A stretch of 64,000 nt of DNA from Desulfovibrio porci (GTDB lineage Bacteria; Desulfobacterota; Desulfovibrionia; Desulfovibrionales; Desulfovibrionaceae): contig NZ_VUMH01000009.1 of assembly GCF_009696265.1 (NCBI RefSeq), positions 62,001 through 126,000 on the forward strand. The letters are read 5' to 3'. This document shows, piece by piece, positions 53,867-58,721 of the stretch. The stretch's first letter is position 1; the number at the start of each line of letters is the position of its first letter. The notes beneath the pieces are model-generated. The model did no database searches. It was not told the origin of the DNA and saw only the letters and a program-made list of their open reading frames with translations. The translations under genes and the position numbers were made by a program.

Positions 53867-54787
53867 TTATACCGTGTAGTGGTGCAGCCAGCCCGCGTAC
53901 TTGGGATTTTCGCCCTTGGCCACCTTGAAGAATTCCTTCTGCAGATGCTTGGTCACCGGGCCCGCATGGCCCGCGCCGATCCGGCGGTGGTCCAGTTCGC
54001 GGATGGGCGTGAGTTCCGCCGCCGTGCCGGTGAAGAAGGCTTCGTCGGCGATGTAGAACTCGTCGCGGGTGAACTGCTGCTCTTCCACCGTATAACCCAG
54101 ATCGCGGGCCAGCGCCACGATGGACTTGCGGGTGATGCCGCCCAGAATGGAGGTCAGGGGCGTGGTTTTGATGACCCCGTCGCGCACGATGAAGATGTTC
54201 TCGCCGGTGGCTTCGGAGACGAAGCCGTTGGTGTCCAGCATGACGGCTTCGTCAAAGCCTTCTTCCTTGGCTTCGATCTTGGCCAGGATGGAGTTGATGT
54301 AGTTGCCCGAGGCCTTGGCCTTGGACATGCAGGTGTTCACATGGCTGCGCGCGAAGGTGCTGGTTTTGACGCGGATGCCTTTTTCCAGGGCTTCTGCGCC
54401 GAGATACGCGCCCCAGGGCCAGACCGCGATGATGGTCTGCACGGGATTGTTGCCGGGGTAGACGCCCATTTCGCCGTGGCCCACAAAGGAGAGCGGGCGG
54501 ATGTAGCCCTCGGGCAGCTTGTTGGCCTTGAGGGTTTCAATGCAGGCTTCGCCCAGCTGTTCGGCACTGTAGGGCAGCTCCATGCGCAGGATCTTGGCGG
54601 AGTTGAGCATGCGCTTGCAGTGGTCCTCCAGGCGGAAGACGGCGGAAGTGCCGTCGGCGCAGGCGTAGGCCCGGATGCCTTCAAAAATGGCGCTGCCGTA
54701 GTGCAGGGCGTGGGTGAGCACATGAACCTGAGCCTGATCCCAGGGAACCATTTTTCCGTCAAACCAGATGAACTTCATTGTCTGCAT
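53867..54787 (-). CDS. ilvE: Branched-chain amino acid aminotransferase
   Basis: PLP-dependent class IV aminotransferase, last step of Val, Leu and Ile synthesis. The 306-aa protein starts MQTMKFIWFDGKMVPWDQA, then has HYGSAIFEGIRAY (fold-type IV signature). The lysine that holds PLP is in SKAKASGNYINSILAKIEA, and EATGENIFIVRDG follows. GAGGTTAGCC supports the ATG at 54787. It has its own promoter (54868-54896). Confidence 0.96.
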   Translation of the reverse strand: MQTMKFIWFDGKMVPWDQAQVHVLTHALHYGSAIFEGIRAYACADGTSAVFRLEDHCKRMLNSAKILRMELPYSAEQLGEACIETLKANKLPEGYIRPLSFVGHGEMGVYPGNNPVQTIIAVWPWGAYLGAEALEKGIRVKTSTFARSHVNTCMSKAKASGNYINSILAKIEAKEEGFDEAVMLDTNGFVSEATGENIFIVRDGVIKTTPLTSILGGITRKSIVALARDLGYTVEEQQFTRDEFYIADEAFFTGTAAELTPIRELDHRRIGAGHAGPVTKHLQKEFFKVAKGENPKYAGWLHHYTV

Positions 54788-54867
54788 GGCTAACCTCGCA
54801 AAGAGCCGCTGTGTGGAGCGCTGTGCCGTGGCCGGGCCGTTTGCCCGCATGGCCGCGCAAGGGCAAA

Positions 54868-54896
54868 AATCTACTGAAAAGCGGCGTTCATGGCAA
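54868..54896 (-). promoter_or_regulatory. Sigma-70 promoter of ilvE
   Basis: On the minus strand: TTGCCA (54896-54891), 17-nt spacer, TAGATT (54873-54868). The end of the MITE-like element lies only 20 nt upstream of the -35 box. Confidence 0.55.
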
Positions 54897-54915
54897 GCGC
54901 TGTCGGCGGTGAGGA

Positions 54916-54933
54916 CAGGGCAGACGCATCTAA
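54916..54933 (+). repeat. Left terminal inverted repeat
   Basis: 18 bp, exact complement of 55476-55493, with a 10-bp direct repeat directly outside. Confidence 0.9.
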
Positions 54934-55475
54934 TTTTTGCTTTACCAGTCTGTTATTTGTCGTGATTATCCGTCAAAACCGGCCTTTTCGGCACCGGCGG
55001 CGTCATCCGGCGCTTTTTGCTGCTCACGTACTTGAGTACATCTCTGCTCTCGATGCCCGTAAGCTCGCTACGCTCGTCAACGGGCACGGCCCTTTGGACC
55101 GCCTTCCGGTCGGTTTCCACGCAAAAAGCGCCATTTTCCTTGCCAGCGCCGAAAAATCTTGCTTCAGCCGTTGCGACGCAGGAGCTTTAGCCGTAGGCGA
55201 GCTTGTGAGCCGTACGGCTGAAGACAGCAATGAGTTACACGAAATTGTGTCCAGGGAAGTCACTGTCGCTATCCGTAGCGATGCTGTCTTGTTCCGTAAT
55301 ACGGCTTCGCCGTGAACGGCTCAAGCAAGCCGCTGGCGCGGCAACGGCTAGCGCATTTTTTAGGATTCTCCCGACACCAGCCATCCGCCTGCGCTTCGCT
55401 CCGGCGGAGCAGAGGCGGCTTTGCCCCTTTTTGTCCGCTACTGAGCTATCTAGTCAATAAATAAATAAAGATTTT

Positions 55476-55493
55476 TTAGATGCGTCTGCCCTG
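55476..55493 (-). repeat. Right terminal inverted repeat
   Basis: 18 bp, exact complement of 54916-54933. Confidence 0.9.
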
Positions 55494-55538
55494 GCGGAGA
55501 GGATTTCTTTTCCTGAGGCTGGCGGCAGCTTCCGGGCC

Positions 55539-55640: not shown

Positions 55641-56741
55641 ATGGACCCACAGAAAAAAAGCTTTGAACTTGAAGAAAGCGCCGCGCGTCTGGCCGACGCC
55701 GCAGTGGATAAAATAGTTTCCTTTCCCGGAGATTACGCGCAGCATCAACGGATTTTGTACGATCTGAAGACGGAACTGACGGACCTCGGCGCGGTGGTTT
55801 GCGCCGGGACCGGGGAGCGCGCCGACGCCTGCGGCAATACGCTGCCCGACGAGCTCAGGTGGCGGCTGGCCGGGGACATGCCGGGTTTCTCCACTGAAGC
55901 CCTGTACCAGAAGCGCTCTTCCCTTTTGTCCATGGGCGGCATCGTCTTCTTCGGCTATCTGCTGGGCGGCCTTTTGTCCACGGTGCTGGGCTGGCTGGAC
56001 ATGGGCGGGGACATCATCCGGGTGGTCGCGGTCTGGGCCATGTTTTACGCTTCGGAATATCTTTCGGCCAATCCCAAGGCGCGTTTACGGGTACTGGCCT
56101 TTCTGGGGCTCGGAACCCTGGCCGGGTTCGCCGTGGGCCTGATGTCGGGCATGCTCCGCCTGACCTCCTGGGCCGGAATCAAGCGGGCGGTTTTCGGAAG
56201 CGGGGAAACCGCGCCGGGCCTGCTGAAACGCTGGTATCTGCTGCTGGGGGCCGCCTTTCTTTTTGTTTTTCTGTCCAAAAAGGTCACGGCCCTGGATGTG
56301 ACGGCCTTCAAACATTCGCTGCAAAAACAGGCGGCGGAGAGGATGCGTTGTCTGCTCGTCTTTTTTGAGGAGCTGAACCGCCGCGACGCCGAATTGGCCG
56401 AACTGAAAAACAGCCGGAGTCCCGACCTGAGTTCCGTGAAATGTCCCAAAAACGATTGTCTTCTCGCGCGGGACGTCATCCAGATGCTGGATGCCTTTGA
56501 TGCGGACACCAGGACATTTCTGGCCGAAAAGCTGGCCGCCGTGGGCTATGAGACGGATTCCGGCCAAGACGATTTTCTGGTCTGGAACGGAGCGGAGCAC
56601 GAAAAATTCTACGATATGGTGGGCCTGGTCAGGGACGGGGACCGTTGCCGCATCCTCAAGCGCTGCTACATGGCCGGCGAAAAGATTGTCAGGGGCTATG
56701 TGCAGCGGGATGCCGGGGAACAGGGATCGTCACGGGAGTGA
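55641..56741 (+). CDS. Membrane protein of unknown function, partner of an Hsp70-like ATPase
   Basis: A 366-aa protein I cannot assign to a family. Residues 1-90 are soluble and acidic/helical. Three to four membrane helices span about 95-215 (SMGGIVFFGYLLGGLLSTVL, then IIRVVAVWAMFYASEYL, LAFLGLGTLAGFAVGLMSG and YLLLGAAFLFVFL). The C-terminal part (about 220-366) is soluble, with helices, a CPKNDC motif near 270 and a final strand-rich segment. GGGAG precedes the ATG. The gene is 3 nt upstream of the Hsp70-like gene, so the two are translated together and the products probably interact. Confidence 0.85.
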   Translation: MDPQKKSFELEESAARLADAAVDKIVSFPGDYAQHQRILYDLKTELTDLGAVVCAGTGERADACGNTLPDELRWRLAGDMPGFSTEALYQKRSSLLSMGGIVFFGYLLGGLLSTVLGWLDMGGDIIRVVAVWAMFYASEYLSANPKARLRVLAFLGLGTLAGFAVGLMSGMLRLTSWAGIKRAVFGSGETAPGLLKRWYLLLGAAFLFVFLSKKVTALDVTAFKHSLQKQAAERMRCLLVFFEELNRRDAELAELKNSRSPDLSSVKCPKNDCLLARDVIQMLDAFDADTRTFLAEKLAAVGYETDSGQDDFLVWNGAEHEKFYDMVGLVRDGDRCRILKRCYMAGEKIVRGYVQRDAGEQGSSRE

Positions 56742-56744
56742 AAG

Positions 56745-58721
56745 ATGAAGAGTATCGGCATTGATCTCGGCACCACCAATACCTATCTCTACGGGACCGG
56801 CGGCGCTTCGGCCGAGCCCGCCCCGCTGACGCTGCCGCGCATCAGCGATGAAAACGGCTGCATAGCCACGGTGGTTCTCTATCAGGACCACAAGCCCCTG
56901 CTCATCGGCAACATCGCGGAAAGCGAATACCACACCAACCGTGCCGCCATGCCCGCGCGGACCCTGCGCAGCCAGTTCAAGCCCGAAATCGCCCACGGCG
57001 ACTCCGAGGCCATGGAGTGGATGACGGATTTTTTACGCGAACTGCGCGCGGCGCTGCCCGAGGGCGTTCTGGAGCCTGAAAGCCGCATTTATGTGGGCAT
57101 GCCTTCCCGGACCAGGGAGGATTTCAGCCTCAATCTGGCCCAATGTTTCGTGCGGGCCGGCTGGCCCCGCCCCGCCTTTGTCAGGGAGTCGGACGCGGCC
57201 ATGATTTCCTGCCTTCAGTCCGGAGCTCTGAGCATCGACGATATCGAAAACAGGGCGCTTATCCTGGATTTCGGCGGCGGCACCTGCGATTTCACCAGCC
57301 TGGAAAGCATGGACGTGCTCCAGAACGGCGGCGATCCCCTGTTTGGCGGGCGCTTGTTCGATGATCTGCTGTTTCAGGTTTTCTGCCGTAAAAACGAGCT
57401 CTTCCAACGGGACGCGCCCGGCTCCGGCTATGAATATTATCTGCACTGGATTCAGTGCAAGGCCGAAAAGGAGCGTTTTTCGGACGCCGTGGCCCTGGAC
57501 GGGGCGGCCAGGGTCAGCCTGCACGCCGTGTGGCATGACGCCCGCGGGAACAGACAGGACGCCTATGTTCACGACTATACGCGGGAGGATTTCATCAGGG
57601 ATGCGGAAAACTACGCGGCCACGGACAGCCTGCGCGCCATGCTGGGCCAGTATGCCGACAGGGGCGGCCTGAGCCCGCAGGCCCGGGATCTGCTGCAAGG
57701 CCGACGGATCGGCCTGCTCTCCTGGTTCAGAAGCATTCTCGGCGGCATTGACGGCCGCCGGGATATTTCAAAAGTCATTCTCACGGGCGGCAGCAGCCGC
57801 TGGTTTTTCGTCCAGGACATGGCGCGGGAGCTTTTCCCCGCCGCCGAGCGGGCCATGAGCCGCCGCACGTATGAGGACATCGCCTACGGCCTGGCCCTCT
57901 ATCCGGTCCTTTCCGAGTCGCACGCCGCCGTGCGGGCGCTTCTGGGCGAGAAAATCGAGACCTTTGCGGATCAGGCCTGCGAAGTGGTGCGGAACATCGT
58001 GGCCAAGCACGCCACATTCGCCGTGCGTCTGTGCACGGAGCGCATTGTGGACCGGGACATCATGCCCGTGCTGGAAGAAGCCCGGAAAGTGCAAAAAACC
58101 GTGGAGCAACTGGAGCGGGCCTTTGTGGAAAACATCCAAAACGATGCCGGGCTGCTGGCCGTCATCAGGGAAAAAACGGAAGCCCTGCGCGAGGAAATCC
58201 AGTACGAATTGCAGCAGCGTTTCAGGGCCTGGCTGCGCCGGAACGGCGTCCCGCTAGCCCCGCGCTTTGAATTCCCCGCGCGGGCGCTCAGCAATGACTT
58301 TTTCGACGCCATCAGCGTAAAGGTGTCGCGCCTGGCTTTTCTGAACATCATGGATTTCATGGCCTCGGCGGTGCTGCCGGGCATTGCCGCCTACGCCGTG
58401 GCCGGGGCCATAGCGCACACGGGCGAGGCTGTCTCCGCCGTGCTGGGCGGCGGCGCGGCCTTTATGGGCGTCTGGGGCCTGGGGAAAGTGGCCAAGGGCT
58501 TTTTGTGGAAGCGCAAGCTGCCCAGGTTTTTCCTCACGGAAACGAACCGGCGAAAGATTGTGGAGAAAAACAAGGCCTATATTGAAGCGGCGTTGGGCAA
58601 GGCTTTCGCGGACGTCCAGGCCGGACTGGCGGACGATGCGGAACGCAGGCTGCGCCACGCCCTTGCCTCCATGCTGTCCAGGCTGACGGTCCTGAATCAG
58701 GTGCGTTGCGCGCGGCCGTAG
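56745..58721 (+). CDS. Divergent Hsp70-family ATPase with membrane-inserting C-terminus
   Basis: A 658-aa protein whose first 390 residues form an Hsp70/actin-type ATPase: phosphate-1 [13 protein letters not shown] at the N-terminus, phosphate-2 LILDFGGGTCDFTSLE (about 170-185) and the adenosine motif KVILTGGSSRWFF (about 342). In place of the usual substrate-binding beta-sandwich is a long helical stretch (about 420-535), two hydrophobic segments (about 535-590: FMASAVLPGIAAYAVAGAI and AVLGGGAAFMGVWGLG) and a final helical part rich in Lys/Arg. It is clearly distinct from DnaK of this genome. It follows the membrane protein gene by 3 nt. Function is unknown; the layout suggests an ATPase acting on or in the membrane. 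Confidence 0.9.
   Translation: MKSIGIDLGTTNTYLYGTGGASAEPAPLTLPRISDENGCIATVVLYQDHKPLLIGNIAESEYHTNRAAMPARTLRSQFKPEIAHGDSEAMEWMTDFLRELRAALPEGVLEPESRIYVGMPSRTREDFSLNLAQCFVRAGWPRPAFVRESDAAMISCLQSGALSIDDIENRALILDFGGGTCDFTSLESMDVLQNGGDPLFGGRLFDDLLFQVFCRKNELFQRDAPGSGYEYYLHWIQCKAEKERFSDAVALDGAARVSLHAVWHDARGNRQDAYVHDYTREDFIRDAENYAATDSLRAMLGQYADRGGLSPQARDLLQGRRIGLLSWFRSILGGIDGRRDISKVILTGGSSRWFFVQDMARELFPAAERAMSRRTYEDIAYGLALYPVLSESHAAVRALLGEKIETFADQACEVVRNIVAKHATFAVRLCTERIVDRDIMPVLEEARKVQKTVEQLERAFVENIQNDAGLLAVIREKTEALREEIQYELQQRFRAWLRRNGVPLAPRFEFPARALSNDFFDAISVKVSRLAFLNIMDFMASAVLPGIAAYAVAGAIAHTGEAVSAVLGGGAAFMGVWGLGKVAKGFLWKRKLPRFFLTETNRRKIVEKNKAYIEAALGKAFADVQAGLADDAERRLRHALASMLSRLTVLNQVRCARP

Follow-up and report, generated by a model that had tools for sequence, protein, structure and literature searches.

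A probable ISAs1-type MITE family with an interior of nested palindromic repeats in Desulfovibrio porci

Type I bacterial MITEs are short, multicopy, gene-free elements that share their ends with an insertion sequence (IS) and are flanked by target duplications (PMC3542288, PMC4133298), with a usual size of 30–300 bp (PMC4133298). The element described here is likewise of this kind, although it is longer, its partner IS was not found in its own genome, and its interior consists of nested repeats. ISAs1-family ISs (NF033564 transposase) have the same 18-bp ends and the same 10-bp target duplication as this MITE, whereas the MITE carries no transposase and its interior is unrelated to theirs. 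Non-autonomous elements with Tn3-type ends are also presumed to be mobilised in trans and can form mosaics, but have ends of 38 bp and duplications of 5–6 bp (PMC4133298), unlike this MITE. REP, REPIN and BIME repeats (PMC3116915, PMC3733652) resemble the four palindromic modules of the interior (A–D), which are likewise repeated genus-wide and in the case of module B also in tandem; however, REPs measure 20–40 bp (PMC3733652), the modules are larger and lack an identified REP-associated tyrosine transposase. Neither an ISAs1-type MITE nor a Desulfovibrio MITE was described in the literature searched, and the 18-bp end appeared in none of its papers, the coverage of that literature being partial. 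Within this partial coverage, the MITE represents a family that is new but ordinary in type, with an unusual nested-repeat interior.

The window, that is the whole 64,000-nucleotide stretch of Desulfovibrio porci DNA that was analysed, is part of contig 9 in a draft genome of 3.31 Mb and 40 contigs that is reported to be 100% complete. Within it the MITE spans positions 54916–55493 (578 bp), or 54906–55503 with its target duplications. The left terminal inverted repeat (54916–54933, plus strand, CAGGGCAGACGCATCTAA), which intact ISAs1-family ISs carry unchanged at their own ends, and the right one (55476–55493, minus strand) are exact complements at 18 of 18 positions. A direct repeat abuts both ends, with the left copy GCGGTGAGGA (54906–54915, plus strand) and the right copy GCGGAGAGGA (55494–55503, plus strand) identical at 9 of 10 positions. 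Allowing up to three mismatches, the 18-bp end was found at two sites in the window, both of them the ends of the MITE, where shuffles of the window gave an expectation of 0.04. Among all exact 16-bp inverted pairs lying within 2 kb of each other across the window, the MITE was the only one with a flanking direct repeat (9/10, versus 0–4 for the others). Neither a Pfam-recognisable ORF nor a transposase gene, of the ISAs1 family or another, was found in the interior. The earlier note, made from the letters of this DNA, had described a 578-bp MITE-like element with perfect 18-bp ends, a near-perfect 10-bp target duplication touching both of them and an interior free of transposase, and this description was borne out together with its coordinates.

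The MITE sits between two divergent genes that are 791 bp apart in the window. To the left lies an ilvE-like branched-chain aminotransferase gene of class IV (53867–54850, minus strand; PF01063, E 5e-51), and to the right a gene for a membrane protein without a Pfam family (55641–56741, plus strand), which was used in the synteny test. A promoter scan placed an ilvE −35-like hexamer at 54896, 20 nt outside the left MITE end, in agreement with the distance given previously. On the membrane-gene side, where a promoter had been proposed about 45 nt from the element, the same scan returned no promoter-like site, and that part of the proposal was not confirmed. Because the predicted ilvE promoter lies outside the MITE, in a region that is conserved in another genome of the genus (G055), no effect on ilvE is claimed. 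On the 3’ side of the membrane gene, a divergent Hsp70-like protein with a weak PF00012 match was observed at 56745–58721.

A DNA search of the genome with the element returned about ten near-full-length copies at 84–91% identity, plus many partial or deleted ones, and the 18-bp end occurred genome-wide at 25 sites with two or fewer mismatches (0 for a reversed control pattern). The copies are scattered over unrelated loci. Nine of them, namely the window copy, L034, L036, L037, L039, L040, L042, L043 and L049, possess two ends and 10-bp flanking repeats, which are perfect in six and match at 9/10 in three, the window copy being among the latter. In others, among them L035, L038 and L041, an end is damaged or missing or the duplication is absent; L046 shows a 9/9 flanking repeat of 9 bp, its ends being less certain, and copies of 160–250 bp represent internal-deletion or simpler forms.

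A search for other copies and for an empty site in relatives had been proposed as a check, and both were found. In G055, ilvE and the membrane-protein gene are also divergent neighbours, about 203 bp apart, with no MITE between them; subtraction of the element and one duplication (588) from the window distance of 791 leaves 203, equal to the G055 gap. The left flank of the window site aligns closely with this gap while the right flank has diverged beyond base-by-base alignment, and therefore the empty site of the window copy rests on synteny, length and the left flank. The empty site of L036, a copy that lies upstream of an apparent formate-tetrahydrofolate ligase gene, is clean: its joined flanks with one copy of the duplication, a 363-bp query, align with G055 over their full length at 83%, straight through the target. 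The same kind of test for L040 gave no syntenic match.

An exact scan of public genomes with the 18-bp end matched at least 116 stretches. In one of these, from Desulfovibrio sp. Roe453_bin138 (L156), an ISAs1-family transposase (NF033564, 371 bits) lies between two 18-bp ends that are 1152 bp apart. G055 contains two intact 1152-bp ISAs1-family ISs (loci L200 and L216) with ends identical to the 18 bp of the MITE and with perfect 10-bp flanking duplications, CCGTCTTTCC and CGCCATGTCC. Their transposase matches that of Roe453_bin138 at 85%, and G055 carries the MITE as well (82%). The draft genome of the window gave no match to either the N-terminal domain of ISAs1 transposases (PF13808) or the L156 transposase, and no autonomous ISAs1 partner was found in its 40 contigs. 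Given that an ISAs1 IS is present in G055 and none was detected in the D. porci draft, the partner is in a relative. A partner IS in the same genome is usual for a MITE, but is not a strict requirement. The earlier note had also called for transposase-bearing copies; transposase-bearing elements with the same ends and duplication length were indeed found in other genomes, with no ISAs1 transposase detected in the draft genome of the MITE itself.

The element is therefore very probably a non-autonomous ISAs1-type MITE, mobilised by an ISAs1-family transposase acting in trans. The proposed mechanism has an ISAs1-family DDE transposase, provided in trans, recognise the 18-bp ends, excise the MITE and reinsert it with a 10-bp stagger at the target, which would give rise to the 10-bp duplications. 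We infer both the mobilisation by this transposase and the cut and paste mode. The local family is apparently now stranded, with no ISAs1 transposase detected in the draft genome, and would be immobile here unless such an IS re-enters.

The interior is strongly self-complementary (predicted folding z −6.5), a terminator scan identified four terminator-like sites against 1.8 expected, and the element is placed between divergent genes. These features would suit an element retained for a function, either as a regulatory or structured RNA or as a terminator or insulator between ilvE and the operon, with its spread being secondary. Such a reading is improbable given that there is no Rfam match for the MITE, copies with 10-bp duplications lie at unrelated loci, many copies are internally deleted, and G055 has no MITE at the ilvE site. 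An ancient conserved RNA, which had been named previously as the alternative, was rejected on the same Rfam result and the unrelated sites of the copies.

The successive inverted repeats reported in the earlier note are present, and belong to separate repeat families that form four modules, all given on the plus strand. Module A (54974–55160, with arms at about 54974–55039 and 55116–55160 and the inverted repeat GGCGCTTTTTGC/GCAAAAAGCGCC) is interrupted by module B (55039–55115). Module C (55161–55354) begins with GCTTCAGCCGTTGCGACGC and ends with GCGCGGCAACGGCTAGCGC, and module D (55355–55430) includes a terminator-like hairpin at 55403–55425. Each module recurs elsewhere in the genus. Module A is found solo in G026 (L075), with neither B nor the MITE shell. 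Module B is missing from the own-genome copy L044 and occurs both solo and in tandem, at a pitch of ~70 bp, in G043, G022 and G050. Module C is missing from the G055 copy L296 at an exact 245|440 junction, with the rest of the shell intact and flanked on both sides by ATTGTTCAGT, a perfect 10-bp duplication; it is solo at the G055 locus L298, and separate part-copies exist in the own genome. Part-copies of module D are solo in G051, G011 and G004. Judged from these comparisons of sequence, the interior is a set of genus-wide palindromic repeats nested in each other, rather than a decayed transposase gene.

MITEs often originate by internal deletion of an IS, and a 141-aa open frame spans the left half of the element, both of which would fit an interior that is a decayed transposase gene and a MITE that is a recent internal-deletion derivative of an IS. 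This is very unlikely, as the 141-aa frame has no Pfam match and the interior instead matches the solo palindromic repeats. Inward of the 18-bp ends, similarity between the MITE and the G055 IS covers no more than about 10 bp (AAAGTCTTTA) and is not significant for the window copy, and origin by simple internal deletion of the G055 IS is unsupported because this subterminal similarity is too short. Tandem arrays of module B in ~70-bp units were observed in several genomes of the genus, for example at L065:1434-1642 (G043). A RAYT was considered as the mover of the interior modules. Four Y1_Tnp matches are present in the genome, three with equal score and a fourth containing a stop; the one Y1 transposase that was classified is of the IS200/IS605 type, with a REP_Tyr_transpos score of 35.7 bits, below the cut-off of 80, and on this classification a RAYT found no support.

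That a transposase of another family still in the genome mobilises the MITE, with its ISAs1-like ends being a convergence, is the least credible reading: the genome has IS200/IS605 transposases and IS481-type ends, but ISAs1 ISs, both those of G055 and those from other phyla, share all 18 bp of the end and the 10-bp duplication length, which argues against it, the IS481 ends in the genome differ from those of the MITE, and IS200/IS605 elements have neither inverted ends nor target duplications.

The ISAs1 end, by which the MITE is very probably mobilised, also occurs outside the genus. Record titles of the at least 116 matching stretches include Acidobacteriota, Verrucomicrobia, Kiritimatiellae, Bacteroidetes and others. 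An element was counted where two ends, of which one or both matched exactly, were separated by 60–3000 bp and had a flanking repeat of at least 8/10, a match that by arithmetic with equal base frequencies would arise by chance in about 4 of 10,000 cases. Among the matches listed, 26 such elements with duplications of 8–10/10 were found, 4 with an ISAs1 transposase and 22 without. Grouping of their interiors by blastn, again among the matches listed, placed the four ISs together, the window element alone and the 22 transposase-free elements in 15 groups. Some of the 22 listed come from Desulfovibrio and its relatives. L098, L108, L116, L145, L162 and others are transposase-free elements of 114–516 bp that have the ISAs1 end, duplications of 8–10/10 and mostly unrelated interiors.

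Transposition in trans is directly testable with this family, since its ends and duplication length are defined, empty sites exist and a relative carries a partner IS. It also shows small palindromic repeats collected within a MITE, and one 18-bp end that is common to transposase-free elements of several phyla; apart from the nested repeats and the shared end, it is an ordinary mobile-element finding. It is conceivable, though rather doubtful, that the ISAs1 18-bp end is a portable mobility signal for many independently formed MITEs, and that the genus MITE serves as a nesting ground and possible cassette carrier. If this were true, a 7.25-kb [FeFe]-hydrogenase/maturase cassette could move with the MITE, given a returning ISAs1 transposase.

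The cassette is an insert within the MITE copy L037 (L037:1562-8815; G000:C12:58729-65982). It is bounded by inverted IS481-family ends of about 119 bp that are 91% alike, with a CTAG/TTAG target, and contains genes for HydG, HydE, a group A [FeFe] hydrogenase with its small subunit, and HydF. Around the insert, the MITE still has a perfect outer duplication, TAGCCGCCCC. The same IS481-type end is present at contig ends of C5, C7, C9, C10, C11, C13 and C17 of the D. porci draft (G000), and therefore a multicopy IS probably broke the assembly.
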